A stretch of DNA of 52,575 bases from Nocardioides iriomotensis. GTDB taxonomy: Bacteria; Actinomycetota; Actinomycetes; Propionibacteriales; Nocardioidaceae. Within the stretch, counting starts at the first letter, position 1. Each line of letters begins with the position of its first letter. Of this stretch, positions 11,899 to 40,330 are shown piece after piece. The position numbers and the translations under genes were made by a program. Location: positions 1 through 52,575 of the forward strand of contig NZ_SDPU01000029.1 in the NCBI RefSeq assembly GCF_004168035.1. Direction: 5' to 3'. Below the pieces are notes generated by a model that worked only from the letters and a program-made list of their open reading frames with translations, was not told the DNA's origin and ran no database searches.

Positions 11899-13746
11899 AT
11901 GACCGACGCGACGCTCGAGTCACGGTTCGCGGCGCTCTGGCCGGACGTGGTCCGGCCCCTCCGGGCGCTGTACGGCGAGCGGCCCGACTTCGACGCCCTG
12001 CTGGACCGGCTCCGGGTCGAGGTCACCGACGCCTACACGGCCCGCGACGCCGACCTGCGGGCGCTGGACGACCGGCGACTGGTGACGCCGGACTGGTTCC
12101 AGCGCACCGACGTGCTCGGCTACGTCTGCTACACCGACCGGTTCGCCGGCAAGCTCGCCGACGTGCCGTCCCGGATCGGCTACCTGCGCGAGCTCGGGAT
12201 CAGTTACCTGCACCTGATGCCGCTGCTCAAGCCGCGGCCGGGCCCCAACGACGGCGGCTACGCCGTGATGGACTACCGCGCCGTCGACGAGCGGCTCGGC
12301 ACCGTCGACGACCTCCGCGACGTGGCGACCGCGCTCCGCCGTGAGGGCGTGAGCCTCGTGCTCGACCTGGTCTGCAACCACACCGCCCGCGAGCACGAGT
12401 GGGCGGAGAAGGCGCGAGCCGGCGACCCGGCGTACCTCGCCTACTTCCGGACCTACCCCGACCGCACCGATCCCGACCGGTGGGAGGCGACCCTGCCGGA
12501 GGTCTTCCCGGACTTCGCCCCCGGCAACTTCACCTGGGTGCCGGAGATGGAGCGGTGGGTCTGGACGACCTTCAACGACTACCAGTGGGACCTCGACTAC
12601 ACGAACCCCGACGTGTTCGTGGAGATGTTCGGCGTCATCTGCCACCTCGCGAACCTCGGCGTCGAGGTGTTGCGGCTCGACGCGGTCGCGTTCATGTGGA
12701 AGCGGCTGGGCACCAACTGCCAGAACCAGCCCGAGGTGCACCTGCTGCTCCAGGCCTGGCGGGCGCTGTCCCGGATCGTGGCGCCGGGCGTGATCCTGCT
12801 GGCCGAGGCGATCGTCGCGCCGGACGACCTGGTCGGGTACCTCGGGCAGGGCGAGGGCGCCGGCAAGGAGTGCGAGCTGGCGTACCACAACGTGCTGATG
12901 GTGAGCCTCTGGAGCGCGCTGGCCGAGCAGAACGCCGCGCTCCTCACCCACACCCTGCAGGCGATGCCGCCGATCCCACCGACAGCGGCCTGGCTGACCT
13001 ACGCGCGGCTGCACGACGACATCGGCTGGGCGGTCACCGACGAGAACGCCCGCGCGGTCGGCCTCGGCGGCTTCGACCACCGGTCGTTCCTGTCGGACTT
13101 CTACTCCGGCACCTACCCCGGCTCGTTCGCCCGCGGCGCGGTGTTCCAGGCCAACCCGCAGACCGGCGACCGGCGGATCAGCGGGTCGCTCGCGTCGCTG
13201 GCCGGCCTGGAGGAGGCGCTCGAGCGCGACGACGACACGGGTGCGGCGCTCGCCGTACGCCGGATCCTGCTGCTCCACCACCTGATCCTGACCTTCGGCG
13301 GCATCCCGCTCGTCTACATGGGCGACGAGATCGGGCAGCGAAACGACCCGTCGTACGCCGCGCAGCCGGACCTCGCCGACGACAACCGCTGGCTGCACCG
13401 GCCGATGATGGACTGGGCGGCGGCCGAGCGGCGGCACGACCCGGCGACCATCGAGGCGCGGATCTACCAGGACCTGCAGCGGATCGTCGCGCTGCGCCGG
13501 GACACCCCGGAGCTCCACGCGCAGGCGTCGGCGGAGGCGATCTGGAGCGGCGACCCGCGGGTGTTCACGCTGCTGCGGTCCAGCGCGCGCGGCGACCTGC
13601 TGGTGCTCGCGAACGTGTCGCCGCACCCGGTCGGCACGACGCTGCCGACCCACTGGGGCGCCGTGCACGACCTGGTCACCGGCGAGGACGCCGAGGGCCA
13701 GGTCGTGCTGTCGGAGTACCAGGTGCGCTGGCTCCGGCGGCGCTGA
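11899..13746 (+). CDS. amylosucrase (GH13)
   Basis: Product of 615 residues, cytosolic, no signal peptide. Amylosucrase uses sucrose to extend an alpha-1,4-glucan and releases fructose. The GH13 catalytic set is present: nucleophile Asp261 in LRLDAVAF, acid/base Glu303 in LLAEAIVAP, and HD at 372-373 in RLHDDIGW. The nucleophile to acid/base spacing of 42 equals that of the Neisseria polysaccharea enzyme (Asp286/Glu328). The amylosucrase-type helical N-terminal domain (FAALWPDVVRPLRALYG) and the TDRFAGKLADVPSRIGYL segment separate it from trehalose synthase and sucrose hydrolase relatives, although the last cannot be fully excluded. The stop codon touches the first three-palindrome repeat. 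Confidence 0.85.
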   Translation: MTDATLESRFAALWPDVVRPLRALYGERPDFDALLDRLRVEVTDAYTARDADLRALDDRRLVTPDWFQRTDVLGYVCYTDRFAGKLADVPSRIGYLRELGISYLHLMPLLKPRPGPNDGGYAVMDYRAVDERLGTVDDLRDVATALRREGVSLVLDLVCNHTAREHEWAEKARAGDPAYLAYFRTYPDRTDPDRWEATLPEVFPDFAPGNFTWVPEMERWVWTTFNDYQWDLDYTNPDVFVEMFGVICHLANLGVEVLRLDAVAFMWKRLGTNCQNQPEVHLLLQAWRALSRIVAPGVILLAEAIVAPDDLVGYLGQGEGAGKECELAYHNVLMVSLWSALAEQNAALLTHTLQAMPPIPPTAAWLTYARLHDDIGWAVTDENARAVGLGGFDHRSFLSDFYSGTYPGSFARGAVFQANPQTGDRRISGSLASLAGLEEALERDDDTGAALAVRRILLLHHLILTFGGIPLVYMGDEIGQRNDPSYAAQPDLADDNRWLHRPMMDWAAAERRHDPATIEARIYQDLQRIVALRRDTPELHAQASAEAIWSGDPRVFTLLRSSARGDLLVLANVSPHPVGTTLPTHWGAVHDLVTGEDAEGQVVLSEYQVRWLRRR

Positions 13747-13808
13747 CTACCGATATCGGTAGCCGGGGAGTGACCCAGGGGTCACGGTTGGACTACCGAT
13801 GTCGGTAG
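13747..13808. repeat. three-palindrome module, copy 1 (16-7-16-7-16 bp)
   Basis: Layout: CTACCGATATCGGTAG at 13747-13762, seven bases, GTGACCCAGGGGTCAC at 13770-13785, seven bases, CTACCGATGTCGGTAG at 13793-13808. The outer blocks are palindromes of the same sequence; the middle one is GTGACCC/GGGTCAC with a two-base centre. It starts on the base after the amylosucrase stop and ends five bases before the stop of the convergent TolB-like gene, so it probably works as a shared terminator. A second copy with the same architecture is at 27510-27571. Confidence 0.85.
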
Positions 13809-13813
13809 CGCGG

Positions 13814-15085
13814 TCAGCGGGTGTAGGCGAAGACGTCCCGCAGGTTGTTGGTGTCGTCGGGGACGACGGTGCCGCGGATCGCGTCGAAGACGACGACGGC
13901 GCCGTTGCCCGAGATCACCGAACCACCGGTCGCGATGCGGTTGTTGAGCGGCTTGGTCGTGCCGGCGTTGCGGTCGCGCAGGTACAACGAGTCCGTCACC
14001 TTGCCGCCCGCGCGCAGGTCCTCGCCGGCGTGGAACGTGACGTAGCGGCCGTCGGCGGAGATCGACGGCGTGACCACCGGGCCCTTGGCCTGGCGCTCGG
14101 CGCTGTCCACCGAGACGAGCTCGGTCTTGTCCTTGCGGCGGTCGTGGACGAAGACGTCGACCTTCTTGTCGGTGTCGCCCTTCGCGAGGTTCTTCGCCGC
14201 GGAGGTGAAGACGACGTACCGGCCGAAGCCGGCGATCTGCGACTCGAAGCTGCGCTTGGCGGCCTCCTCGCCCTTGCTGCTGACGGAGACGCGCTCGGTC
14301 TTCTTCTTGGTCAGGTCGCGGACGAAGACGTCGTGGGCCTTGTTCTTGTCGCCCTTGACGTAGTCCTTGCTCTTCGCCGTGAACGACACGAACTGCCCGT
14401 TGTCGGAGATGCTCGGGTCCTTGCCGCCACCCTCGCCGCCCTTGCGGGTGATCGTCACCAGCTGGGTGGTGCCGGCGGTGCGGTCGCGGACGTAGACGTC
14501 CTGGTTGCTCGAGGAGCTGTCCTCGTCGGCCAGAGCCGCGAACGACGTGAACGCCACGAAGCGGCCGTCCTTCGACACCGAGGCGTCGAGGCTGCGCTGC
14601 TGGGCGGCGGACTCGTCGGAGGCCACCGACACGATCTCGGTCGTGCCGGCGACGCGGTCGCGGATGAACACGTCGCTCATCCCGTTGAAGTCGTTGGCGA
14701 CCAGGTCGTTGGCCGAGGACGTGAAGACGACGTACCGGCCGTCCGCGGAGACGTCGTTGACCAGCCCGCCGCTGGCCTTGCCGCCCGTGCCGACCGTGAC
14801 CAGCTCGGTGGTGCCGAGCACGCGGTCGCGCACGTAGCCGTCGGCCACGAGGTTCTCGTCCTGCGGGGACAGGGTGGTGGCGTTCGACGTGAACCCGACG
14901 TAGCGGCCGTCGGCGGACGGGATGCCCCCGCCGCTGACGTTGTCGGCCTGCGCCCCGGCCGCGCCGACCGACACGCGGTCGACGGTGGCCGCCGCGGTGG
15001 CGGTCCCGGTGGTGGCGGCGGTCACCGCGACGACGCCGAGGGTCAGGCCGACGGCGACGAGCGGCCTCATCGTGTGCTTGTTCAT
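13814..15085 (-). CDS. secreted TolB/WD40-like beta-propeller protein
   Basis: Product of 423 residues. The ATG at 15085 follows GGAGG and gives a clear signal peptide (MNKHTMRPLVAVGLTLGVVA, cleavage near residue 32). The mature part is about eight repeats of some 48 residues with the pattern SxDGRYVxFTS ... DVFVRDRxxGTTELVSV, as in TolB-like PD40 propellers. It has no anchor and should be exported. Its function is unknown; such proteins are frequent in secreted sets of actinobacteria and usually act as binding scaffolds. Monocistronic, convergent with amylosucrase. Confidence 0.8.
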   Translation of the reverse strand: MNKHTMRPLVAVGLTLGVVAVTAATTGTATAAATVDRVSVGAAGAQADNVSGGGIPSADGRYVGFTSNATTLSPQDENLVADGYVRDRVLGTTELVTVGTGGKASGGLVNDVSADGRYVVFTSSANDLVANDFNGMSDVFIRDRVAGTTEIVSVASDESAAQQRSLDASVSKDGRFVAFTSFAALADEDSSSSNQDVYVRDRTAGTTQLVTITRKGGEGGGKDPSISDNGQFVSFTAKSKDYVKGDKNKAHDVFVRDLTKKKTERVSVSSKGEEAAKRSFESQIAGFGRYVVFTSAAKNLAKGDTDKKVDVFVHDRRKDKTELVSVDSAERQAKGPVVTPSISADGRYVTFHAGEDLRAGGKVTDSLYLRDRNAGTTKPLNNRIATGGSVISGNGAVVVFDAIRGTVVPDDTNNLRDVFAYTR

Positions 15086-15230
15086 GTGGTGGTTTCCTCC
15101 CGTAGAGGCCCGCATCGAATCACGGGCCGGGCCGAAAACGGCGCGAATCGCCAAGGTAACGCAGAGGCGACTTCTCGGCTCAGGCGAGGGACTCCACGCG
15201 TGCCTCGTGCAGCGCGCGGCGACGTGACGA

Positions 15231-15803
15231 TCAGGCCTGGACCGGTGTCGGCCGTTCGTCGTACGCCGGGTGGTGGCTCGCCACGTTGCGGGCCTCGGTG
15301 AGGTGGCCGCCCAGGTAGGCGCCGACGGCCGAGACGGCCGCTCCGGCCAGGGCGAGCCGGGCCCCGGTGCGGTGCCGGTCGCGCTTTCGGGCGAACCACG
15401 ACGCCGTGTACACGCCGATGGCGACGGCGTTGGTGACCGCGTGCACGAGGCCGACGCGCTTGTCGCGCGGCCCCACCCTCGACCACTCGGCCCATCCGGT
15501 CCAGGCCGTCGGCCCGACGACCAGCAGACCGGTGCCGATGAGCCGGCGAGCCGATTCCGACGAGTCGGCGCCACCCACCAGGTCGAGCACGGTGGCGGAG
15601 GTCCACGTGCCGAGCACGACGTCGGTGAGCACCGGGTGGACGGCGTGACCGAGCCACTCGCCACGCAGCACCGCGCCCCGGGCACCGTTGCCGAACACGG
15701 CCTGGATCAGCGGCTCCACGGCCCGGACCGGACCGTCGAGCGACGTCGCGTCCTCCAGCCCGAGCGTCCAGCGGACGACTCGAGGCGGTTCCACCGTGTC
15801 CAT
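15231..15803 (-). CDS. DUF2231-like membrane protein
   Basis: Product of 190 residues. The start is the ATG at 15803 (MDTVEPPRVV) behind GGAGGA; the open frame upstream lacks a ribosome site. Hydrophobic segments sit at about 50-65, 70-88, 98-112, 125-145 and 155-172. The segment LRGEWLGHAVHPVLTDVVLGTW, with His and Pro in the first helix, is typical of DUF2231 proteins, which are predicted haem-or redox-linked membrane proteins of unknown role. A second His is in GLVHAVTNAVAI. The family is often found beside Rieske or cytochrome genes; none is seen here. Confidence 0.65.
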   Translation of the reverse strand: MDTVEPPRVVRWTLGLEDATSLDGPVRAVEPLIQAVFGNGARGAVLRGEWLGHAVHPVLTDVVLGTWTSATVLDLVGGADSSESARRLIGTGLLVVGPTAWTGWAEWSRVGPRDKRVGLVHAVTNAVAIGVYTASWFARKRDRHRTGARLALAGAAVSAVGAYLGGHLTEARNVASHHPAYDERPTPVQA

Positions 15804-20448: not shown

Positions 20449-23400
20449 TCAGGACCCGAGCTTCCTCCGCGACCAGCGGCCGCGGGCGATCATCAGGGCG
20501 CCGCCGAGCAGGACGAGTCCCGCGCCGGACCAGAGCACCATCCCGCTCGGACCACCGGTCTCCGGGAGACCGGCCACCACCACCGGCGGACGCGGCCGGG
20601 GCCGGGGCCGGGTGTCCTCCTCGGGCAGGATCTGCGGGCCGCAGACGGTCACCGTGGCCGTCGCGTTCGCGCCGGTCTGGACGATGCTCGCCGTGTTGGT
20701 GAGGTCGACGCACTCGTTGGTGTCCGCCGCGAGGTCCAGCGAGTAGCTGAACGGCGTCGGGGTGCCGGCCGCGTTCCAGGTGGCCTGGCCGAGCGGGATG
20801 ACCTGACCCGGGACGGTCTGGTCGTCGACCACGTCGACCACCTTGTTCGTCTCCTGGTCGAGGGCGAAGGTCACCGGCGACGTCAGCGCCACCGATCCCT
20901 GGGCCCAGGTCACCGTCGTCGTACCGGTGCCGGTGTACGCCGGCTGGCCCGTGAAGGCGCAGCTGTAGGTGTACGTCCTGCTGCTCGACGCCGGGACGAC
21001 CAGGTCCTGGCCGGGCGTCAGCGAGCAGGCGGCGCCGCCGCCCAGGTCGGTCAGCGTCGAGGCACCGGCGGTGAGCGGCTTGTAGGCGTTCCCGTTCGAG
21101 ATCGTCAGCGCCCCGGACATCGTCCAGCCCGAGTCTGTCGACGCACCCGGGATCGCGTTGACCGTGTAGTCGACCCTGGCCGTGCCGTTGTCGCCGACGT
21201 CGAACCGCGTGCCACCGGCCGCCTTGGCGATCGACCAGTCGTAGGTGCGGTCGTAGCTGGCGTTGACGATGTTCGCCAGGACGGCGTCATCCTCGACGCA
21301 GAGCGTCACGGTCGCCTCGTCGGACAGGTCCGGGCTCCCCTCGAGCGGCACGGTGGCCGTGTTGGTGAAGTCCGTGCACTTCCCGGCGGTGCCGGTCAGC
21401 GGCAGCTGGTAGGTGAACCGGGTCGGCGTGCCGTTCGGGTTCCACGTCGCCTCGCCCAGCTCGACCCGCTTGCCCGGGACCGTCTTGTCGTCGTACACGC
21501 TGACGACCTTGTCGATCTCGTTCACCAGCGCGAACGTGACGCCCTCGTCGTCGGACGACGCCGTGCGCGCCTGGCCGGTCGGACCCGTCCAGCTTGCCTT
21601 CGCCTCGTTGCTGCCGGAGTAGCTCGGCCGGCTGGTGAAGGTGCAGGTGTAGTCGAGCGTGACGGAGTCGCCCGCGTCGATCTCGACGTCCTCGCCGTCC
21701 TCGACGGTGCAGACCGCCCCGCCGCCGACCGACGGCACGTCGGTGATGTCCGCCGTGATCGACCCGTCCGCGTAGTCATTGGGGTTGGTCACCGTGATGG
21801 TGCCCCACATCGCGAAGTCGTGGTCGTCGTGGCCGGCCTCGCCGGGCAGCTGCGGGGTCACCTCGACCGTGTAGTCGAAGGTGCCCGTGGTGCCGTCGGT
21901 GACCTCGACGTCGTCGAGCTGCTTGGCGACCTTGTCCAGACGCCAGTGGTACGTGCGCTCGTACGTCGCCGTGACGGTCTTGTCGAGCTCCAACGCGTCC
22001 TCCGCGCAGACGGTGACCGTCTCGTCGGCCGCCTGCTCGGTCTGGACGATCGTCGCGGTGTTGTCGTGGTCGACGCAGGTGCCGCCGATCCCCTTCACCG
22101 TCCGGTCGTACTCGAACGTCTTCACGCCGTCGAACCAGTTGGCCGTGCCCAGGTCCTCGACCTCACCGCTGCCCGCGATGGTGGCGTCGTCGAACAGGTC
22201 GGTCACGTCGACCACGTCGTTGATCTTCTTCGTGAGGGCGAACGTGATCGGCGCCGTGCCGACCGCCGTCCGGGTGCCACCGCTACCGGTCCACGTGGCC
22301 GTGGCGGTGTTGGTGCCCTGGTAGGACGACGGGCCGGCCTGCGGGAAGGTGCAGGAGTAGCTCAGCGTCTTCGTCTCGCCCGCGGCGATCGTGAGGTCCT
22401 CGCCGGACGCCACGGTGCAGGTCGCACCGACCGTGTTGGTGTCGGTGACGTCGGCCGTGATCGAGCCGACGCCCGCGGCGTTCGGGTTCGTCACGTCGAT
22501 CGTGCCGGTCATCACCCAGCCGCCGTCGACGTACGAGCCCGGGTCGACCGTGACCGTGTAGTGCGCGGTCGCGGACCCGCCCTCGGCGATCTCGAAGGAG
22601 GTCTTGTCGGCCTGCTTCGTGATCGACCACAGGTAGGTGCGCTCGTAGGTCGCGTCGACGGTCTTGGTCACCGTGAGCGCCTTCTGCACGCAAAGGGTGG
22701 CCGAGGCGGTGTCGGTCTGCCCGGTCTCGACGATCGTCGCCGTGTTGTCGTAGGTCGTGCACTGGCCGGCGACACCGGTCTTGGTCAGGGAGTACTCGAA
22801 CGACTTCGGCGCGCCCCACGTGGCGGTGCCGAGGACGTTGCTCGCACCAGGGACGGTCTTGTCGTCCTTGACGGTGATCGTCTTGTTGGTCTCCTTCGCC
22901 AGGCTGAACGGCACCGCGGTCGGGACCGAGGAGGCGGACCCGCCGTCCCAGGTCGCGACGGCGGTGTTGGTGCCGCCCTGGTAGAGCGGCGCCGAGCCGA
23001 AGGTGCAGGTGTACGGGCGGCTGGCCGACGCCGGCACGACCTGGCCGTTCACGAGCGTCGCCTGGCCGATGAGGACGTCGTCACCGTTGGTCACGCTGCA
23101 GACTGCGCCGCCGCCCACGCTCGGCACGTCGGTGAGGTCGACGGTCATGGTCTTGAACGTGTTGGGGTTCTTGGCCGTGATCGTGCCGCCCATCGTCCAG
23201 CCGCTGTCGGTGTAGCTGTCCGGTGTCGCCGTGACCGTGTAGTTGAAGGTGTAGTCACCACCGTCGATGTCGACGTGGGTCTTGTCGACCTGCTTGTCGA
23301 TCAGCCACGTGTAGGTGCGGTCGTAGGTGCCGGAGGCGGTCTTCTCGACGCTGACACCGAGTGGCGCGCAGACCTCGACCGTCTCCTTCGCGAGCTGCTT

Positions 23401-26022
23401 GGTCTCCACGATCGTGGCGGTGTTGGTGTAGCTCACGCACTGGCCGGGCTGCCCCTGCAGCTCGAGCGCGTAGGTGAACGTGTGCGTGGTGCCCTGGGCC
23501 TGCCACGTGACCGAACCCAGCGCGTGGCTGGCGCCCGGGACCGTCTTGTCGTCGACGATGTTCACGGTCTTGCCGACCTCGCTGACCGTCCAGTCGGACT
23601 CGACCACGCCGGCGTCGCCGCTGGCGGTGCCGGTCGGCGTCGAGGCGGCCGCCTGGTCCCAGGTCACCCAGGCGACGTTGGTGCCGGTGTAGCTCGGCTT
23701 GGTCGCGAAGGTGCAGAGGTAGTCGAACGTCTTGCTGCCGCTCTTCGGGATCGTGAGCCCCCCGGTGGTGTCGACCATGCAGGACACGGAGTCGTTGTTG
23801 TACTCGTCCTTGATGCCCGTCAGCGTGACGTCCTGCCAGTCGTTCGGGTTGGACACGGTGATCGAGCCCTGCATCAGCCACCTGCTGTCGGTGGCCGCGC
23901 CGTCGGTGACGGTGACCGTGTAGTTCGCGGTCGCCTTGCCGGTCTTCGGGTCGACGTCGAGCGTGGTGTCCGTGGCCCTCTTGTCGATGTTGAAGGCGTA
24001 GTTGCGGGTCAGGCTCGCGATCTTGTTCTTGCTGACCGTCAGGTCCTTGCCCACGCAGACGTTGGCCTGGGCCGAGTCGTTCTGACCCGTCTCGGTGATC
24101 GTGGCCGTGTTGTCGTAACGCGTGCAGGTGCCCGGGGTGCCGGTGAAGGTCTTCTCGTACGTCCGGGTCTCCGGGCTCGCACCCTCACCCCAGGTGTTCA
24201 CCCACGCCGGGTCGAAGGTGTGCTGGTTGTCGGTGATGGTGACCGTCTTGTCGGTCTCCGTGTCGACCTTGTAGGCGTAGTCCGCGGTGCCCTGGGCCTT
24301 GTCGGTCCCCGGGTTCGAGGAGCTCGCCTGCTCCTGGGTCTGCGGGTAGTCCGCCAGGCTCCACTCGACCTTCGCCGTGTTGGTGCCGTCGGCCGGGTTC
24401 GCCGCCGCCGGCGCGCAGGTGTAGCCGAAGTCGGTGGTCTTGCTGGCCGCCAGGCTCACCTGGAGGCCGGCGGCAGCACCCGAGACGTCGGTGACGTTCG
24501 GGAAGCTGCAGACCGTGCCGTCGCTCAGCACGTCGGACAGGGTGACGGTCATCGGCAGGCTGTTCGGGTTCTTCACCGAGACGGTGCCGTGCACCTCCCA
24601 GCCGGACTTGATCTTCTCCTTCTCCGTGACGGTCACGCCGTACTGGAAGGTGGCGCCGGTGCCCTGGGGGACGTTCTGCGTCGCCGAGGCGCCGTAGCTG
24701 CCACCGGGGTTGCGGACGGCCTTGTCGATCTCCCAGGTGTAGCGGGCGTCGTACGTCGCCACGGCCGTCTTCACGACCTCGGGCTTGTCGTACTTGCGCT
24801 TGTCGCTGAAGGTGAAGGTGACCGTCTCGCCGGTGGCCAGCGTCTTCTTGGTGCACCGGTCGGCGTCCTCGGCGTCGGTCACGCACGGCGCGGGCAGGAA
24901 GTAGCCCTCGGGCGCCGCGAGCTCGGTGACCTTGTAGCTGACGCCGGGCTTCACGTTGGTGACGGTGATCTTGCCGACCGCGGGGTCGGCGTCAGCGAGC
25001 TCGCCGGCGGTCACGTTCGCGTCGTTGTCGGTGACCGTCTTGGGCGTCGCGTCCTGCGATCCGGCCGTCGGGTTCGGGTCGATCTCGAACTTCGCGCCCG
25101 GCACCGTGACCGGCTGGCCCGTCGCCGCGTCCAGCTTGACGATCTTGATCGTGCCGCAGTCGGACGGGATGTTCACGGGCCCCTGGACGAGGTCCTTGAG
25201 CCGGCTGGTGTCGCCGTTCTCGTTGCCCTCCTGGGTGCGCATGTTGAAGGTGCTGAAGCCGCTCACGGGGCAGGAGGTGGCGCCGAGGTCGGTCAGGTTG
25301 ATGACCAGCTCGAAGAACTGGTTGGCCGGGATCTTGCCGTTCGACAGGTAGGGGGAGCCGAAGTAGTCGTCGATCGGGGCGGTGTTGACGCCGAACTGTG
25401 TGAACTGGTCGCACGGGAGGAGCGCGCCCCACTTGCTGCCGTCCCACAGCTGGGCCTGCTGGCACTCCTGGGAGTCGCTGCCGTTGATGTCCAGGTTGAT
25501 CCGGAGGTCACCCACGGTGCGGACGGGCATAGCGGACGTCTGCGCCTTCTGGTTCAGCTCGATCCAGTAGTTCTGCGTGCCGGTGCCGCTGCCGCGGTCC
25601 CAGCCGAGTGCGAGCATGAGGTCGCCGTTCTGCCGGTAGTCGTAGATCAGCACGTTGCCGACGTCGGACTTGCCGGACGCCACGTTGTCGCCGACCGACC
25701 AGCCCTTCTCCTGGCCCTCGCCGTCGTAGTCGTTCTCGCTGTTACCCGGACCGAAGCCGTCGTTGTCGGCCGGGTCGGTGCTGATCTCGTCCTCGATGAG
25801 GACGAAGTGCGCGTCACCGACCTTCAGGCCCTGCCAGTCGGTCGCGATGCCGTCCTGGTTGCCGTCGGTGTCGATCCCGGTGGGCGCTGCGTAGGCGGCC
25901 GAGATCCCCAGGAGGGGGAGCGTCAGCAGCGCGAGCGCCGCGGACAGCACCACGCGCACGGCGATCGAGAAGAGAGAAGGCCGCGCGTTCGGACGCGAGC
26001 GGCGAGAAGGCTGACTGGCCAC
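20449..26022 (-). CDS. giant LPETG-anchored repetitive surface protein
   Basis: Product of 1,857 residues. The GTG at 26022 opens into a long signal peptide (basic SRRSRPNARPS, hydrophobic core, AYA cleavage near residue 45). Residues about 46-300 form a unique N-terminal domain. About 300-400 is a SpaA/Cna-B prealbumin-like domain (GTIKIVKLDAATG to TELAAPEGYFLP). Six repeats follow, starting at residues 424, 671, 900, 1126, 1354 and 1590; each begins Y-D/E-R-T-Y-x-W and carries GTIxVxNPN, YxCTF, GTNTA, DDKTVPG and NTATIVxTxQ. The end is a Pro/Arg stretch, LPETG at 1819-1823, one membrane helix and an RRKLGS tail: a sortase substrate. No sortase gene is in the window. Probable adhesin or cell-wall fibre; ligand unknown. 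Confidence 0.88.
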   Translation of the reverse strand: MASQPSRRSRPNARPSLFSIAVRVVLSAALALLTLPLLGISAAYAAPTGIDTDGNQDGIATDWQGLKVGDAHFVLIEDEISTDPADNDGFGPGNSENDYDGEGQEKGWSVGDNVASGKSDVGNVLIYDYRQNGDLMLALGWDRGSGTGTQNYWIELNQKAQTSAMPVRTVGDLRINLDINGSDSQECQQAQLWDGSKWGALLPCDQFTQFGVNTAPIDDYFGSPYLSNGKIPANQFFELVINLTDLGATSCPVSGFSTFNMRTQEGNENGDTSRLKDLVQGPVNIPSDCGTIKIVKLDAATGQPVTVPGAKFEIDPNPTAGSQDATPKTVTDNDANVTAGELADADPAVGKITVTNVKPGVSYKVTELAAPEGYFLPAPCVTDAEDADRCTKKTLATGETVTFTFSDKRKYDKPEVVKTAVATYDARYTWEIDKAVRNPGGSYGASATQNVPQGTGATFQYGVTVTEKEKIKSGWEVHGTVSVKNPNSLPMTVTLSDVLSDGTVCSFPNVTDVSGAAAGLQVSLAASKTTDFGYTCAPAAANPADGTNTAKVEWSLADYPQTQEQASSSNPGTDKAQGTADYAYKVDTETDKTVTITDNQHTFDPAWVNTWGEGASPETRTYEKTFTGTPGTCTRYDNTATITETGQNDSAQANVCVGKDLTVSKNKIASLTRNYAFNIDKRATDTTLDVDPKTGKATANYTVTVTDGAATDSRWLMQGSITVSNPNDWQDVTLTGIKDEYNNDSVSCMVDTTGGLTIPKSGSKTFDYLCTFATKPSYTGTNVAWVTWDQAAASTPTGTASGDAGVVESDWTVSEVGKTVNIVDDKTVPGASHALGSVTWQAQGTTHTFTYALELQGQPGQCVSYTNTATIVETKQLAKETVEVCAPLGVSVEKTASGTYDRTYTWLIDKQVDKTHVDIDGGDYTFNYTVTATPDSYTDSGWTMGGTITAKNPNTFKTMTVDLTDVPSVGGGAVCSVTNGDDVLIGQATLVNGQVVPASASRPYTCTFGSAPLYQGGTNTAVATWDGGSASSVPTAVPFSLAKETNKTITVKDDKTVPGASNVLGTATWGAPKSFEYSLTKTGVAGQCTTYDNTATIVETGQTDTASATLCVQKALTVTKTVDATYERTYLWSITKQADKTSFEIAEGGSATAHYTVTVDPGSYVDGGWVMTGTIDVTNPNAAGVGSITADVTDTNTVGATCTVASGEDLTIAAGETKTLSYSCTFPQAGPSSYQGTNTATATWTGSGGTRTAVGTAPITFALTKKINDVVDVTDLFDDATIAGSGEVEDLGTANWFDGVKTFEYDRTVKGIGGTCVDHDNTATIVQTEQAADETVTVCAEDALELDKTVTATYERTYHWRLDKVAKQLDDVEVTDGTTGTFDYTVEVTPQLPGEAGHDDHDFAMWGTITVTNPNDYADGSITADITDVPSVGGGAVCTVEDGEDVEIDAGDSVTLDYTCTFTSRPSYSGSNEAKASWTGPTGQARTASSDDEGVTFALVNEIDKVVSVYDDKTVPGKRVELGEATWNPNGTPTRFTYQLPLTGTAGKCTDFTNTATVPLEGSPDLSDEATVTLCVEDDAVLANIVNASYDRTYDWSIAKAAGGTRFDVGDNGTARVDYTVNAIPGASTDSGWTMSGALTISNGNAYKPLTAGASTLTDLGGGAACSLTPGQDLVVPASSSRTYTYSCAFTGQPAYTGTGTTTVTWAQGSVALTSPVTFALDQETNKVVDVVDDQTVPGQVIPLGQATWNAAGTPTPFSYSLDLAADTNECVDLTNTASIVQTGANATATVTVCGPQILPEEDTRPRPRPRPPVVVAGLPETGGPSGMVLWSGAGLVLLGGALMIARGRWSRRKLGS
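20630..24753 (-). repeat. six protein-coding repeats of about 226-247 codons
   Basis: The repeat units of the surface protein begin at 24753, 24012, 23325, 22647, 21963 and 21255. Intervals are 247, 229, 226, 228 and 236 codons. They are clearly homologous at protein level but diverged in DNA, so they are old duplications and not a recent expansion. Each unit has conserved Cys residues (CxV near the middle, YxCTF, GxC, VC at the end) that could make disulfides outside the cell. Confidence 0.8.
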
Positions 26023-26422
26023 GATCCCCCCAAGGATCAGTTCGGTCAGCCACCGGGAGGGCGGCACCGTCCACGCCGTGCGCGCAGGTGTGCGCACGGC
26101 GCCACGGCCACCTAGGCCCCCCAAGGTGGCGATGCGGTTGCCGGCCGGCGATCCCGGTCGACGAGACGCCCGCCCCCCATCGGCGCAACGTCGTGATGTT
26201 CCAGCGCTGTCCGGTCGTGATGCCCCCATCACTTCCGGACGCTTGAGTCTCGACCCGCCGATTAGACCGAGAAAAGACCTATGTCCCGATCTAGCCGAAA
26301 CTTCATCCTTTCGGTTGCTTGATCGGACTTCTTGATGGTCCGACCGGGTGGTTCTCGAGTAGCCCGATCGGGCCATCGGCCGGCGTCGGACCAGTCCAGC
26401 CGCGCGGACTAGGGTGACCGCC
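26023..26422. promoter_or_regulatory. 400-base divergent control region with a structured leader
   Basis: Gap between the surface protein gene (minus) and the aminotransferase (plus). On the minus strand it holds three hairpins before the GTG: 26107-26113 with 26124-26130 (GCCACCT/AGGTGGC); 26075-26083 with 26092-26100 (GCCGTGCGC/GCGCACGGC); and GATCC/GGATC at 26023-26027 and 26034-26038. The last one holds the G-run that must serve as Shine-Dalgarno. Further up, 26240-26345 is much less GC-rich than its surroundings and holds nested dyads (CCGATC/GATCGG and CCGAAA/TTTCGG over 26286-26326; TCGGAC/GTCCGA over 26323-26343). It is the likely promoter region for both genes, but no -35/-10 pair stands out. 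Confidence 0.45.
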
Positions 26423-27508
26423 ATGACCACGCCTGAGGAGAGCGGCCCGGTGGTGCGACCGGCCATCGCGAACATCCCCGCCTACGTGCCCGGCAAGCCG
26501 CCCGCGGCGCGACCGGGGCTGACGACGTACAAGCTCTCCTCCAACGAGAACCCCTTCGACCCGCTGCCGGGCGTGGTCGAGGCGGCGGTCGAGGCGGCCG
26601 GCCGGATGAACCGCTACCCCGACATGGGTTGTACGGCGCTGTACGCCGCGCTCAGCGAGAGGCTGGGAGTGCCGACCGAGCACCTCGCGGCCGGCACCGG
26701 GTCGGTCGCCGTGATCTACCACCTGCTGCAGGCGTTCTGCGAGGCCGGCGACGAGGTCGTCTACGCGTGGCGGTCGTTCGAGGCCTACCCGATCGCCGTC
26801 GCGGTGACGGGCGCGACGTCCGTCCAGGTGCCGCTGGCGGCAGGTGGACGGCACGACCTCGACGCGATGGCGGCCGCGATCACCGACCGGACCAAGGTCG
26901 TGCTGGTCTGCTCCCCCAACAACCCGACCGGTCCGGCGGTGACGCACAGCGAGCTCGAGGCGTTCCTGGCCAAGGTGCCGCCGCACGTCCTCGTCGTGGT
27001 GGACGAGGCCTACCGCGAGTTCGTACGCATCGACGACCCCGTCGACGGTGTCGCGCTCCACCGCGCCCGACCCAACGTGGTCGCCATGCGCACGTTCGCG
27101 AAGGCCTACGGCCTGGCCGGCTTCCGGGTCGGGTACGCCGTCGCCGATCCCGAGGTCGCGGCGGCCGTGCGGGCCTGCGCGCTGCCGTTCGGGGTGTCGA
27201 GCGTGGCACAGGCCGCGGCGGTCGCGTCGCTCGAACGGGAGGCCGAGCTGCTCGAGCGCGTCGATGCGATCGTCACCGAGCGTGCGCGGGTCGTCGCCGC
27301 CCTGCGCGACCAGGGGTTCGACCTGCCCGACGCGCAGGGCAACTTCGTCTGGCTCGGCCTCGGCGACCGCACCCTGGAGTTCGCGAAGGCCGCCGACGAG
27401 GCCGGCGTCATGGTGCGCCCCTTCGCGGGCGACGGCGCGCGGGTGACCATCGGCGAGCCCGCCGGCAACGACGTCCTGCTCTCGGTGACCCCGGCCTTCG
27501 CCTCCTGA
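26423..27508 (+). CDS. HisC-like aminotransferase (histidinol-phosphate or aromatic amino acid type)
   Basis: Product of 361 residues, fold type I PLP enzyme. The ATG at 26423 has AGGG eight bases before it; a GTG three codons upstream overlaps that site. Recognisable parts: [13 protein letters not shown], the HisC-family N-terminal substrate loop; [21 protein letters not shown]; and the PLP lysine Lys227 in [15 protein letters not shown]. The absence of any other his gene nearby favours the Pat/HisC2 type, an aromatic amino acid aminotransferase known in actinobacteria, but the two cannot be separated by sequence inspection alone. The second three-palindrome repeat begins two bases after its stop. 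Confidence 0.85.
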
Positions 27509-27509
27509 G

Positions 27510-27571
27510 CTACCGATGTCGGTAGTCCAGGAGTGACCCACGGGTCACGGTCCGACTACCGATATCGGTAT
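27510..27571. repeat. three-palindrome module, copy 2 (16-7-16-7-16 bp)
   Basis: Same architecture as copy 1: CTACCGATGTCGGTAG at 27510-27525, seven bases, GTGACCCACGGGTCAC at 27533-27548, seven bases, CTACCGATATCGGTAT at 27556-27571. The last base of the right block breaks the palindrome. The GATGTC and GATATC variants of the outer block are in opposite order from copy 1. It lies just after the aminotransferase stop and 45 bases before the next gene, so it may end one transcript or sit over the next promoter. Confidence 0.85.
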
Positions 27572-27616
27572 GAGACGACAGGAGCATCACGACCGGACAG
27601 CCCTTACGCTGGTCCG

Positions 27617-28597
27617 GTGTCCACCACCCTGCTCGCTCCGCCCACGGCTGCCGTCCGCCGCCCGGCGCTCGGTCTCGGCCTGGTGGTGCTCGGGGCGCTG
27701 CTCTTCGTCGTCAACGCCGGCGTCTCCCGCGTCGCGCTGCGCGCCGGGGTGGACCCGGCCACGCTGACCACGATCCGCCTCACCGGTACGACGCTGGTGC
27801 TGGTGGGGGTCGCGGCGGCGTTCCGGCCGAGTGCGCTCCGGCCACCGACGGGACGGCTCGGGTGGCTGCTCGTGCTGCACGGCCTGGTCGGCGTCGCGGG
27901 GCTGCAGTGGACCTACTTCGTCGCGATCGACCGGCTCCCGGTCGGGATGGCGCTGCTGCTGGAGTACCAGGCGCCGATCCTCGTCGCGCTCTGGGCGCGG
28001 GTCGTCCAGAAGGAGTCGGTGCGCCCTCGGATGTGGGTCGGGCTCGGTCTGGCGCTCGTCGGCATGGCCGCCGTGACGGGCATCTGGCGCGGCCTCGCGT
28101 TCGACACGGTCGGCATCGTCGCGGGTCTCGGGGCGGCGGTGTGCTTCGCGGCGTACTTCCTCATCGGCGAGCACGGCGTCGGCCTGCTCGACCCCCTGCG
28201 GGTGATCCTGTGGGCGTTCCTCGTCGCCACCGTCGCCATGAACCTGGTCTCGCCGCTCACCGGCTTCGACACCGGGCTGCTCGACGACGCCGCTCCCCTG
28301 CTCGGCCGGCTCGACGGCCTGTCGGTGCCGGTGTGGACCGCGCTGACCTGGGTGATCCTGCTGGGCACGCTGATCCCCTTCGCCGTCGCGCTCCTCGCGC
28401 TGCAGCACCTGCCCGCGACGACGGTCACGATGGCGTCCATGCTGGAGCCGGTGGGAGTCAGTGTGCTGGGGTGGATCTGGTTCCGCGAGTCGCTCGGGGC
28501 CGTGGCCGTGATCGGCTGCGCGGCCGTCGTCGCCGGGATCGTGCTCGCGCAGTCCGCGCGACGGGCGGCCGTCGTCGTGGAGCCTCCGCACCTGTGA
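27617..28597 (+). CDS. EamA/DMT superfamily permease
   Basis: Product of 326 residues, ten hydrophobic segments in two EamA halves (GLVVLGALLFVVNAGVSRVA first helix; WTYFVAIDRLPVGMALLLEY; TTVTMASMLEPVGVSVLGWI). I start at the GTG at 27617. It has no Shine-Dalgarno, but TACGCT at 27605-27610 is a fair -10 box placed about seven bases before it, so the mRNA may be leaderless. It is coupled to the downstream GNAT gene by a GTGA overlap. RhtA-like amino acid exporters belong to this family; substrate unknown. Confidence 0.83.
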   Translation: MSTTLLAPPTAAVRRPALGLGLVVLGALLFVVNAGVSRVALRAGVDPATLTTIRLTGTTLVLVGVAAAFRPSALRPPTGRLGWLLVLHGLVGVAGLQWTYFVAIDRLPVGMALLLEYQAPILVALWARVVQKESVRPRMWVGLGLALVGMAAVTGIWRGLAFDTVGIVAGLGAAVCFAAYFLIGEHGVGLLDPLRVILWAFLVATVAMNLVSPLTGFDTGLLDDAAPLLGRLDGLSVPVWTALTWVILLGTLIPFAVALLALQHLPATTVTMASMLEPVGVSVLGWIWFRESLGAVAVIGCAAVVAGIVLAQSARRAAVVVEPPHL

Positions 28598-29495: not shown

Positions 29496-31592
29496 TCATA
29501 GCGCCATCGCCGGCGCCTGGCCGTTCACCACGCCGACGGAGCGGATCTGGACCGGGCCGGTGAGCTCGCCGTACGAGATGACCGGCATCCGGTTGATCGA
29601 CGGCGCGACCATCCGGCGCACCGCCGCCCGGATCTGCGGGGCGCAGACCAGCACCGGGGTGAGGTTCTGCTCCTCGGCGGCCGTGCCGAGCTGGGCGAGC
29701 TGGGTGAGCAGCGCCTGGGTGAGGTCGGCGTCGAGCGCGAGGAAGCCGCCGCCCTCCGCGACTCGCAGCCCCTCGAGCAGCCGCTGCTCGAGCAGCGGCT
29801 CGAAGCTGATCACGTTGATCGTGCCGTCCTGGACGTACGGCGCCACGACGGCCGGCCCCAGCGTCTCGCGGGCGGCGTCGACGAGGCCGTCGATGTCCTT
29901 GGAGGCCCGGGCGCGCAGGGACAGCGCCTCGAAGATGCGGGAGAGGTCGCGCACCGAGACCTGCTCGTCGAGCAGCACCTGCAGCACGCGGTGAATCTCG
30001 CCGAGCGACAGCAGCGCCGGGGTGAGCTCCTCGACGACGGCCGGGTGCGTGCGGCGGACGACGTCGGTGAGCATCTTGACGTCCTCGCGGCCGAGCAACC
30101 GGGCGGCGTACCCGCGGACGACCTCGGCGAGGTGCGTGGTGAGCACCGACGAGCGGTCGACGACGGTGGCGCCGGCGAGCTCGGCCTGGCTGCGGAGCTC
30201 GACCGGGACCCACACGGCCGCGAGCCCGAACACCGGCTCCTGGGTGCGGCGGCCGGGCAGCCCCTCGAGGCCGTCGCCGATCGCGAGGACCGTGCCGGGG
30301 GGCGCCTCGCCACGGGCGACCTCGACGCCGAAGAGCCGGATCGCGTAGGTGCCCATCGGCAGGTCCAGGTTGTCGCGGGTGCGGACCGGCGGCACGACGA
30401 CGCCGAGGTCGACGGCGACCTTGCGGCGCAGCGCCTTCACCCGGTCCAGCAGGTCACCGCCGGAGGCGGGGTCGACCAGGTCGATGATGTCGCCGGACAG
30501 CTCGAGCTCGAGCGGGTCGACGCGGATCTCGTCGAGCAGCGCCTCCATCGAGTCCGGCGCGGGGCCGGCGGCGGCCTCGGCCTGCGCGGCCTCGATCGCC
30601 CGGGCCTCGTCGATCTCGGACTGCGGGGTGACCCGCGTGGAGAGGAACAGCAGCAGCCCGCCGGACACCAGGAACGGCAGCTTCGGGATGCCCGGGATCA
30701 GGCACAGGCCGAGGGCGCCGAAACCGGCGATGCGCATGGGCATCTGCTGGCGGGAGAGCTGGCCGATCAGGTCGGAGCCCATGTCGGCGTCGCCCGCGGC
30801 ACGGGTGACGATGATGCCGGTGGCGACCGAGAGCAGCAGAGCGGGGATCTGGGAGACCAGGCCGTCTCCGATGGTCAGCAGGGAGTACGTCGACACCGCG
30901 TCGCCGAACGACATCTCGTGCTGGACGATGCCGATGGTGAAGCCGCCGATCAGGTTGACCAGCGTGATGATGATCGCCGCGATCGCGTCGCCCTTGACGA
31001 ACTTCGAGGCGCCGTCCATCGCGCCGTAGAAGTCGGCCTCGCCGGCGACCTCGGCACGACGGCGTCGCGCCTCGTCCTCGGTGATCAGGCCCGAGTTGAG
31101 GTCCGCGTCGATCGCCATCTGCTTGCCGGGCATGGCGTCGAGGGTGAACCGCGCCCCGACCTCCGCGACGCGGCCGGCACCGTTGGTGACGACCACGAAG
31201 TTGATGACGATCAGGATCGCGAACACGATGATGCCGACGATCAGCGAGCCGCCGATCACGAAGTGGCCGAAGGTGTCGATGACCTTGCCGGCGTACCCGT
31301 CGAGCAGCACGAGCCGGGTGGCGCTCACGTTGAGCGCGAGCCGGAACAGCGTGGCGACCAGGATCAGGGCGGGGAACGACGCGAAGTCCAGCGGCCGGTG
31401 GACGAACATCGCGGTGAGCAGGATGAGCAGCGCGGCGGTGATGTTGAACGCGATCAGCATGTCCAGCACCACGGGCGGCAGCGGGACGACGAGCATCACG
31501 ACGATCGCGACGATGCCGACCGGCACGCCGATCTGCGTCATCACGCGCTGACGCGCGGGCTTCGCGTTGTGACGCGGGGCGTTCTCGGCCAC
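29496..31592 (-). CDS. flhA: flagellar export gate protein FlhA
   Basis: Product of 698 residues; GTG start at 31592 behind GAGG. FlhA forms the nonameric ring of the flagellar type III export gate and couples proton flow to export. Eight membrane helices in the first half; the conserved cytoplasmic FHIPEP loop is ADLNSGLITEDEARRRR with NVSATRLVLL before it. The second half is the soluble domain that docks chaperone-substrate pairs (ARLLGREDVKMLTDVVRRTHPAVVEEL). Length is normal. It has its own promoter-like module (31695-31724) in the gap after flhB, giving a leader of about 95 bases. Confidence 0.96.
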   Translation of the reverse strand: MAENAPRHNAKPARQRVMTQIGVPVGIVAIVVMLVVPLPPVVLDMLIAFNITAALLILLTAMFVHRPLDFASFPALILVATLFRLALNVSATRLVLLDGYAGKVIDTFGHFVIGGSLIVGIIVFAILIVINFVVVTNGAGRVAEVGARFTLDAMPGKQMAIDADLNSGLITEDEARRRRAEVAGEADFYGAMDGASKFVKGDAIAAIIITLVNLIGGFTIGIVQHEMSFGDAVSTYSLLTIGDGLVSQIPALLLSVATGIIVTRAAGDADMGSDLIGQLSRQQMPMRIAGFGALGLCLIPGIPKLPFLVSGGLLLFLSTRVTPQSEIDEARAIEAAQAEAAAGPAPDSMEALLDEIRVDPLELELSGDIIDLVDPASGGDLLDRVKALRRKVAVDLGVVVPPVRTRDNLDLPMGTYAIRLFGVEVARGEAPPGTVLAIGDGLEGLPGRRTQEPVFGLAAVWVPVELRSQAELAGATVVDRSSVLTTHLAEVVRGYAARLLGREDVKMLTDVVRRTHPAVVEELTPALLSLGEIHRVLQVLLDEQVSVRDLSRIFEALSLRARASKDIDGLVDAARETLGPAVVAPYVQDGTINVISFEPLLEQRLLEGLRVAEGGGFLALDADLTQALLTQLAQLGTAAEEQNLTPVLVCAPQIRAAVRRMVAPSINRMPVISYGELTGPVQIRSVGVVNGQAPAMAL

Positions 31593-39013: not shown

Positions 39014-39781
39014 TCAGGCCGCCTTGGCCTCGTCGGGGTCCATGGCCAGCAGGGACTCCAGACGCTGCGCCACCACACGCGGGTTGGAGCCGGCCTGCAC
39101 GGCCAGGACACCCTCGATGACGACCTCCATGCGAGCGGCCTCGAGGTCGCCGATGCGGGTGATCCGGCTGCCGATCGGCAGCCACATCACGTTGGCCGTC
39201 ATGACACCCCACAGGGTCGCGACGAACGCGCCCGCGATGAGGTGACCGAGCTTGTCCGGCTCCGACAGGTTCTCGAGCACGTGCACGAGGCCCATGACGG
39301 TGCCGATGATGCCGATGGTCGGCGCGTAGCCGCCCATGTCGTTGTAGAACTTGGCGTCCTGCTTCGCCTTCTTCTTCTTGGCCATCGACTCGGCCTCGAG
39401 GATCTCGCGGATCTCCTCGGCGTCGGTGCCGTCGACGGCCAGGCTCACGCCCTTCTTGAGGAACTCGTCGTCCATCTCCGCCACCGCGTCCTCGAGGGTC
39501 AGCAGCCCGCCCCGGCGCGCCTTGTCAGCCAGGTCCACCACCACAGGGACCAGCTCGGCGGGCGGGGTCGCCTTGTAGCCCATCGCCGTCTTCAGCGCGG
39601 CGAACGAGCTCTTCATGTCCGCCAGGGTGCAACCGGCGATCGCGGCACCGAGGGTGCCGAAGATGACCAGGATCATGGGGGGCATGAGGATCAGCGACAT
39701 CGGGTTGCCGCCCTCGAGGACGTTGGCCCCGAGGATGGCCGCGAACGCCAGGCCGATGCCGATCGGTGTCGCGCGGTCCAT
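39014..39781 (-). CDS. motA: flagellar stator protein MotA
   Basis: Product of 255 residues. With MotB it makes the ion-driven stator. Four membrane helices; large cytoplasmic loop with MDDEFLKKGVSLAVDG and EAESMAKKKKAKQDAKFY; conserved GGYAPTIGIIGTVMGLVHVLENLSEPDKLG in helix 3, with Pro and Gly positions intact. The ATG at 39781 overlaps the flbD stop by one base (TGATG); a GTG one codon earlier is less likely. Confidence 0.95.
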   Translation of the reverse strand: MDRATPIGIGLAFAAILGANVLEGGNPMSLILMPPMILVIFGTLGAAIAGCTLADMKSSFAALKTAMGYKATPPAELVPVVVDLADKARRGGLLTLEDAVAEMDDEFLKKGVSLAVDGTDAEEIREILEAESMAKKKKAKQDAKFYNDMGGYAPTIGIIGTVMGLVHVLENLSEPDKLGHLIAGAFVATLWGVMTANVMWLPIGSRITRIGDLEAARMEVVIEGVLAVQAGSNPRVVAQRLESLLAMDPDEAKAA

Positions 39782-40140
39782 CACAGGCTCCTCGGGGTGA
39801 GCGGCACGACGGGCCCGTCGACGGGCTCGTCGAGATCGTGGGCGCTGCCGTCCACGTGACCGTCGTGACGGTCGCGACCCTCGGCGTCCGTGGCGGGTAC
39901 GGCGGTGAGCCGGCCGCGGCGGGCGGGGGTCTCGGCACCGTGCTCGAACGAGCCGGCGGCGCCGATCACGGCGGCGCGGAAGTCGCGCACGGCGGCGACG
40001 ACCTCGGCCAGGGACTCCAGGACGATGTACTTCGTCCCGTCGACCAGGGTGATGACCGTGTCAGGGGTGCAGTCGACGCGCTCGATCAGATCCGGGTTCA
40101 GCGCGAACTGCGCGCCCGTCATACGCGTGAGCGTCACCAT
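39781..40140 (-). CDS. flbD: flagellar FlbD family protein with C-terminal extension
   Basis: Product of 119 residues. FlbD proteins of Gram-positive flagellar operons are about 60-75 residues, of unknown biochemical role, and sit before motA as here. The core is residues 1-55 (MVTLTRMTGAQFALNPDLIERV; TPDTVITLVDGTKYIVLESLAEVVAAVRDF). The rest is an Asp/His/Arg-rich tail with no recognisable fold. The start is the ATG at 40140, preceded by AAGGAT; the open frame further upstream is non-coding. First gene of its block, about 50 bases after the predicted start of transcription from P3. Confidence 0.88.
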   Translation of the reverse strand: MVTLTRMTGAQFALNPDLIERVDCTPDTVITLVDGTKYIVLESLAEVVAAVRDFRAAVIGAAGSFEHGAETPARRGRLTAVPATDAEGRDRHDGHVDGSAHDLDEPVDGPVVPLTPRSL

Positions 40141-40195
40141 CGGTGCACCATCCTTGTGCGGTCGAACGTGCGGCCATCCGTGGCCGGCACCAAGT

Positions 40196-40224
40196 ACTTC
40201 GGCTGCTGCCGGGTCGATCTGAGG
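40196..40224 (-). promoter_or_regulatory. FliA/WhiG-like promoter P3 for flbD-motA-motB-fliL
   Basis: Minus strand: CCTCAG (40224-40219), 15 bases, GCCGAAGT (40203-40196). The weakest -10 of the four modules, but with the same -35, spacing and position between a terminator and a block start. Confidence 0.65.
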
Positions 40225-40302
40225 GGCCCGGCCGTGCCTTTTTGTCCGATTTCGCGGCAGCGGCGGGAGCGCTGCCCGCGCCGGGACGAGGCCGGACGCG
40301 AC

Positions 40303-40330
40303 GGTGCCCCGGCCCATGGGCCGGGGCACC
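40303..40330 (-). terminator. perfect palindromic terminator after flgE
   Basis: A 28-base perfect palindrome (GGTGCCCCGGCCCA and its complement) starts 17 bases after the flgE stop on the minus strand. As RNA it folds into a stem of about 12 GC-rich pairs with a CAUG tip. It closes the long flgB-flgE block and is followed by promoter P3. Confidence 0.75.

Follow-up and report, generated by a model that had tools for sequence, protein, structure and literature searches.

A REP-like family of 62-bp composite palindromes at gene 3′ ends in Nocardioides iriomotensis

Introduction

REPs are extragenic sequences that, according to the passages on location in PMC3733652, occupy gaps between convergent or unidirectional genes, adjacent to a 3′ end and often less than 20 bp from a stop codon. 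GTAG REPs and BIMEs, which are associated with RAYT/TnpA-REP, occur as dispersed extragenic palindromes at 3′ ends in enterobacteria, Pseudomonas, and Stenotrophomonas. Their copy number is given as usually above 100 in the relevant part of PMC2817692, and the account of the stem in PMC8266576 states that E. coli REPs keep a mid-stem mismatch that is needed by TnpA-REP. In the part of PMC12306157 that concerns them, ribosomes are reported to stall at REPs located no more than 15 nt from a stop codon. CGTC-tagged REPs, including dRS3 of Neisseria, are also palindromic, have no dedicated transposase, and form mosaic clusters; the passages of PMC3733652 devoted to them treat their spread without RAYT transposases as an open question and give phyla that do not include Actinobacteria.

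Two further kinds of sequence resemble such repeats. Intrinsic terminators are stable G+C-rich hairpins located directly after stop codons and can serve both strands, while MITEs are short, non-coding, multi-copy inverted repeats of patchy occurrence between species. In this work, we describe a family of composite palindromes from Nocardioides that is REP-like rather than a true REP family, as it departs from REPs in copy number, in the unpaired GTAG tag, and in the RAYT. Literature searches on palindromic, repetitive, or intergenic repeats of Nocardioides and Nocardioidaceae found no paper on such a family, and the outer core sequence, used as literature text, led to no paper on the subject (judged by title).

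Two copies in the window and their neighbours

The window is the whole stretch of DNA that was analysed, 52,575 nucleotides of the host genome (G000; Nocardioidaceae, 4.71 Mb in 47 contigs). With fabF as query against named genomes, the hits are mainly from Nocardioidaceae (Nocardioides, Kribbella, and MAGs), at a best identity of 89%. Reading of the window, together with pattern and covariance-model searches, revealed two 62-bp composite palindromes, neither of them assigned to a strand, with the 16-7-16-7-16 layout that the first-pass annotation had reported. Copy 1 is located at 13747-13808 (outer palindrome 13747-13762, arm 13763-13769, middle palindrome 13770-13785, arm 13786-13792, outer palindrome 13793-13808), and copy 2 at 27510-27571 (in the same order, 27510-27525, 27526-27532, 27533-27548, 27549-27555, and 27556-27571). 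The second copy had been said to keep every block, which is correct for the layout; its last outer block has one mismatch to the 16-mer, with T instead of G as the final base (CTACCGATATCGGTAT). Allowing three mismatches, the 16-mer has eight matches in the window; over 100 shuffles the mean was 0.44 and no shuffle reached eight. Its recurrence is not a matter of chance. An Rfam scan of the window gave no match at gathering score.

Both copies start where the annotation had placed them relative to stop codons, copy 1 directly after the TGA at 13744-13746 and copy 2 one base past the TGA at 27506-27508. The gene ending before copy 1 (11899-13746, + strand) encodes an alpha-amylase catalytic domain, and five bases after this copy ends a convergent gene (13814-15685, − strand, predicted start) with only a weak PD40 beta-propeller match. 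Copy 2 follows a class I/II aminotransferase gene (26414-27508, + strand) and is itself followed, in tandem, by a gene for an EamA-like transporter (27533-28597 in the longest frame, + strand, predicted start). The longest frame of the latter begins inside the element, whereas the start given by the codon-usage caller lies about 45 bases beyond copy 2; the first codon of the longest frame is a GTG at 27533, within the middle palindrome and directly after AGGA. Elsewhere in the window, the − strand carries a frame of 2008 aa (20449-26475) with internal repeats about 680 bp apart and a SpaA prealbumin-like domain, likely encoding a large surface protein, as well as FHIPEP (FlhA-type) and FlbD matches (29496-31592 and 39781-40329) that form part of a flagellar gene cluster.

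Copy number in the host genome

A three-block pattern with up to three mismatches gave 25 forward and 26 reverse matches in the whole of G000, which correspond to 26 places (hand count), and the reversed control pattern gave none. The covariance model built from the copies found 54 matches, that is, 27 places on two strands, all of them full copies. The idea of a new extragenic repeat family is thus borne out by 27 copies that keep the spacing, by the empty control, and by further copies in relatives; an absence of further copies, or a loss of the spacing, was looked for and did not occur.

The middle palindrome alone (at most one mismatch) occurs 28 times in G000, in 25 cases inside a triple (hand count), and few outer palindromes were seen outside a full triple among the matches listed (L046, L047, L048, and L049). 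Since both palindromes are seldom seen outside triples, the triple is the unit. L047 and L048 are half-elements and L046 is a lone outer palindrome, all possible relics of decayed copies; L049 is a weak outer palindrome within a crude gene call. The exact pattern had no match in genome_contigs, a set from which records of the host or very near genomes may be missing.

Anatomy and folding

The unit consists of an outer palindrome, an arm, a middle palindrome with a GTGACC core, a second arm, and a second outer palindrome, and the whole forms a single dyad. In an ungapped alignment of the 27 host copies, the near-invariant core reads outer ACCGA..TCGGT, AG, arm, GTGACC-NNNN-GGTCAC, arm, CT, outer, with more variation in the two bases at each end of the element. 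In several of these copies, the element starts on the A of a TGA stop codon.

Both window copies fold into a single long hairpin as RNA and as DNA, so three separate hairpins were rejected as the ground state. The folding energies are −41.8 kcal/mol on the + strand and −35.7 on the − strand for copy 1, −41.8 and −36.6 for copy 2, and the mean MFE of the 27 copies is −41.1 kcal/mol. Columns 23 and 40 are unpaired in 20 of the 27; an imperfect stem with an internal mismatch is also a trait of E. coli REPs (PMC8266576, in its account of the stem), a parallel that is suggestive only.

The spacers of the first-pass annotation, where they were taken to be free in sequence, are the arms of this long stem and are constrained: they follow a consensus of roughly YCSNRSN, read inward, with columns 5 and 7 correlated. 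The 54 arms of G000 comprise 35 distinct sequences, and identical arms recur beyond what column shuffles give (35 pairs against 17.3 expected, with 5 of 2000 shuffles reaching 35). The two arms of one copy match at fewer positions than shuffled partners do (3.33 against 3.83 of 7 positions; 1994 of 2000 shuffles at or above the observed value) and therefore pair less than chance. Shuffling whole right halves points in the same direction more weakly, with 42 of 500 shuffles as low. In copy L029 (1498-1559), an unusual GAAATC centre occurs in both outer palindromes with identical orientation, which gives the impression that one end is a duplicate of the other.

Placement at gene 3′ ends

Placement was assessed with our own crude codon-usage gene caller. 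Among the 27 copies in G000, 14 are located between convergent genes, 13 between tandem genes, and none between divergent genes; two of them (L043 and L045) share more than 20 bases with a called frame. Mapped against stop codons, as the first-pass annotation had proposed, the copies lie within 15 nt of 35 of the 41 stop codons that adjoin them. The 38 groups in the relative G003 comprise 8 convergent, 25 tandem, and 5 unclassified cases, again with no divergent one; the L103 group, which falls inside a crude gene call, was counted here and left out of the tests on G-U pairs and sense hairpins described below. As a null, 208 of 657 gaps of at least 60 bp in 1.6 Mb of the relative G002 are divergent, and at this share the probability of 0 divergent cases in 60 is near 1e-10.

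Within tandem gaps, the element lies nearer the 3′ end in all 13 host copies and in 22 of 25 in G003 (the exceptions are L085, L103, and L104), and it stays close to the stop codon in both genomes even where the gap is long. In the 14 convergent pairs of G000, it occupies nearly all the space between both stops. The family therefore exists and sits at gene 3′ ends.

Versions in related genomes

The genus is represented by seven genomes, G000 to G006. Model R1, at E 1 or better and with both strands counted, gave 54 matches in G000, 90 in G003, 11 in G002, and 7 in G006, and three of the six sister species thus carry their own sequence versions. The other three (G001, G004, and G005) had no match with model R1 or R2, the last two being only 81% and 86% complete; with matches in four of seven genomes, genus-wide presence was rejected. 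Model R2 is a mixed model made from 34 chosen copies (12 of the 27 in G000, 18 of at least 46 in G003, three in G002, and one in G006), and the same copies served for the cross-species pairing test.

In G003, the 37 loci fetched contain at least 46 middle palindromes with flanks, and their arm types are recurrent and mixed. Eight of the 38 groups hold two middle palindromes about 45 bp apart, whereas such chaining occurs in none of the 27 copies of G000. In 13 of 46 units, both 7-base arms have the same sequence, against 2.9 in shuffles, the opposite of what is seen in G000, and the arms pair beyond shuffled halves (56.1% against 48.1, with 7 of 500 shuffles as high); pairing of the outer palindromes in G003 is not above that of shuffles (63.3 against 66.2). 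Copies differ between species in position and in sequence, with arms that recur and are mixed. Across species the dyad is kept, with 84.8% of cells paired in the 34 chosen copies against 73.6 in shuffles, a covariation that comes mostly from a handful of differences between species and hence from few independent events.

Further afield, a two-mismatch pattern searched in 294 family genomes matched only in G000, in G003, at one place in G002, and at two weak places in G272. Model R2 matched 11 of 149 genomes, four of them in the genus; beyond the genus, 7 of 142 genomes had matches at E 0.01 or better against about 1.4 expected by chance, with E-values that are rough. The sole genome of this latter group that looks multi-copy is G126, from another genus, in which a hairpin with the GTGACC core and different arms occurs at five places, two of the printed ones starting at a likely stop codon (by eye). 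The hairpins at these five places (L271, L283, and L286, around 1501-1564) are near-perfect and have the form GTGAGAGTGACC-N4-GGTCACTCTCAC. Also outside the genus, G019 has one sequence that resembles the triple palindrome (L272, 1501-1562), in which ACCGAAATCGGT forms the outer blocks. The middle-core motif occurs at least once in 112 of 149 genomes, 26 times in G000, 50 times in G003, and 0 to 7 times in all others, so a family-wide enrichment of the core was rejected. In G010 and G115, both from genus g5 of the host's family, the reversed control pattern CACTGGNNNNCCAGTG is found 16 and 17 times, against 0 to 2 times in the other genomes scanned for the core, and possibly marks another palindromic repeat family.

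Shared and private sites

One site is common to four species. The gap between acpP and fabF is occupied in G000 (L033), G002 (L107), G006 (L053), and G003 (L085), inside a gene run and 44 nt before the fabF start, and the G000 and G003 copies each follow the type of their own species (by eye). In the 25 of 80 relatives for which this gap was printed, the element was seen by eye in none; some have unrelated hairpins and others short gaps. The G000 copies L041 and L030 have a neighbouring gene in common with the G003 copies L092 and L091, and L039 and L072 lie at different joints of one acyl-CoA dehydrogenase/enoyl-CoA hydratase run.

Other sites are private. For 11 of the 27 host loci, the 1.6 Mb of G002 contained matching genes, and none of the eight syntenic sites printed holds the element, in agreement with the model scan of that sequence. 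At two of the eight (L019 and L026), its place is taken by a strong, unrelated hairpin. Of 520 gene ends in G002, 184 have a strong hairpin, so this is no enrichment, and the view that the element replaces ordinary terminators was rejected.

Tests for RNA-level selection and mobility

Selection on the sense RNA should give more G-U than A-C pairs in tandem copies. No such excess was found on the sense strand of 13 G000 and 28 G003 tandem units (61:57, p 0.78), and the sense hairpin is stronger than the antisense one in just 6 of the 13 and 12 of the 28 units, respectively. Compensatory change shows no excess within G000, and covariation in this genome gives no proof of RNA structure for either the long hairpin or three hairpins. 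There is also no T-tract: the 8 bases after the element contain a mean of 1.12 T (41 flanks), against 1.41 after ordinary hairpins of G002, and a simple terminator scan of the window gave no site at copy 1 or copy 2. The terminator function put forward as a possibility by the first-pass annotation thus finds no backing in T-tracts, scan sites, or sense-strand G-U pairs, and the RNA-level tests in G000 are negative. The dyad matters; the pairing tests do not separate RNA from DNA as the selected level.

As for mobility, Y1 transposases (RAYT, PF01797) were found in none of the seven genus genomes, while the positive control was found in 5 of 14 named genomes, so RAYT was rejected as the mover. 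The transposase search covered this one family. No target-site duplication was seen by eye in the flanks, and no pair of outer palindromes encloses a gene among the matches listed. Arm polarity among the 13 tandem copies of G000, judged by eye, is A-first in five, B-first in three, and unclear in five, and a tie between polarity and transcription was rejected at five against three. The evidence on the suggested small mobile element is mixed: positions do differ between species, but neither a transposase partner nor a target duplication was found.

Relation to known elements and interpretation

The family shares with GTAG REPs and BIMEs its dispersed, palindromic, extragenic nature and its downstream position, with no divergent case among 27 host copies or 33 classified G003 groups. 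Mosaic arrays have their counterpart in the chained groups of G003, and species-specific versions are common to both (PMC3733652, in the passages on this point). Unlike GTAG REPs, the family has a 62-bp triple unit and a copy number of 27 full copies in G000 and 90 two-strand matches in G003, and no RAYT was found in the seven genomes of its genus. An unpaired GTAG tag is also absent, as GTAG in G000 is internal and paired and the G003 arms have other sequences. With CGTC-tagged REPs, the family has palindromic repeats, mosaic clusters, and the apparent lack of a dedicated transposase in common. The CGTC (or TGTC/CCTC) tag was not seen as a constant end in the copies, however; some G003 ends begin with CCTC, others with GACC, GCTC, or ACTC.

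We consider it about evenly balanced whether the elements form a species-specific, REP/BIME-like family of composite palindromes that spreads by non-RAYT means and has a role as a 3′-UTR hairpin. That the element acts as such a hairpin is the most likely reading and probably correct. Copies would be spread or homogenised at the DNA level by non-RAYT machinery. Transcribed behind a stop codon, the element would form a long 3′-UTR hairpin on either strand, which could protect the mRNA or help to end it, and copies at gene 3′ ends may be tolerated or kept for this reason. By analogy with REPs close to stop codons, the hairpin may also slow the ribosome.

A serious rival, to which we give a minor share of the probability, is that the element is a double-stranded DNA site. 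Its outer and middle palindromes, with centres 23 bp apart, would be bound by one or two dimeric proteins that organise the chromosome or act in regulation, and 3′ ends would merely be the least harmful places. The fixed distance between centres fits this reading, as do palindromes that are conserved in sequence beyond pairing with varying arms between them, and the lack of any G-U excess or, in G000, compensatory excess. Plain binding sites, however, would need neither the covarying arms of G003 nor pairing kept between species. Two further points count against a DNA site: there is no family-wide enrichment of the middle core, and stop codons are hugged even in long tandem gaps.

Somewhat less probable is the view that the element is a dedicated terminator of transcription in both directions, copies of which have reached many genes. 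Like an intrinsic terminator, it is a stable G+C-rich hairpin at gene 3′ ends. In the convergent pairs, it takes up almost the entire space between both stops, and at L019 and L026 an unrelated strong hairpin stands in its place; both observations fit such a device. Structure alone would suffice for a terminator, yet the sequence of the element is conserved between unrelated genes; in this, and in its shortage of T after the hairpin and of scan sites at the window copies, it is unlike intrinsic terminators. The two syntenic hairpins are not above the general level of G002 gene ends, and one copy stands between acpP and fabF.

We regard as equally doubtful a miniature transposon without host function, moved by some transposase, its 3′-end bias being what selection tolerates. 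Positions that differ in related species, patchy presence in the genus, truncated copies, and an arm polarity unlinked to transcription would all suit it. Recent copies should nevertheless have common arms, and the many distinct arms of G000 accompany nearly identical palindromes. The family resembles MITEs as a set of short, non-coding, multi-copy inverted repeats that is patchy between species. Unlike them, it has a strong stop-codon bias, and neither a target duplication nor a transposon whose ends match was seen. The acpP-fabF copy is kept in four species. A phage origin was rejected, as a related pattern gave no match in viral_contigs.

Significance

Beyond the 3′-UTR hairpin reading, we tentatively propose, as a possibility well short of even chances, that the family represents an actinobacterial REP-like class that spreads and evolves in concert without RAYT. 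Its two kinds of palindrome would serve as recombination hubs between which arms are shuffled, and the copies of each species, including those at the shared ancestral acpP-fabF site, would be driven to the species' own sequence by machinery acting on DNA, through protein recognition or conversion. The family is small, its versions are cleanly separated by species, and it offers modular arms and a shared site, which makes gain, loss, and concerted change directly traceable. If the hairpins set mRNA 3′ ends, they would provide a natural test set for end formation in a high-G+C genome without T-tracts.
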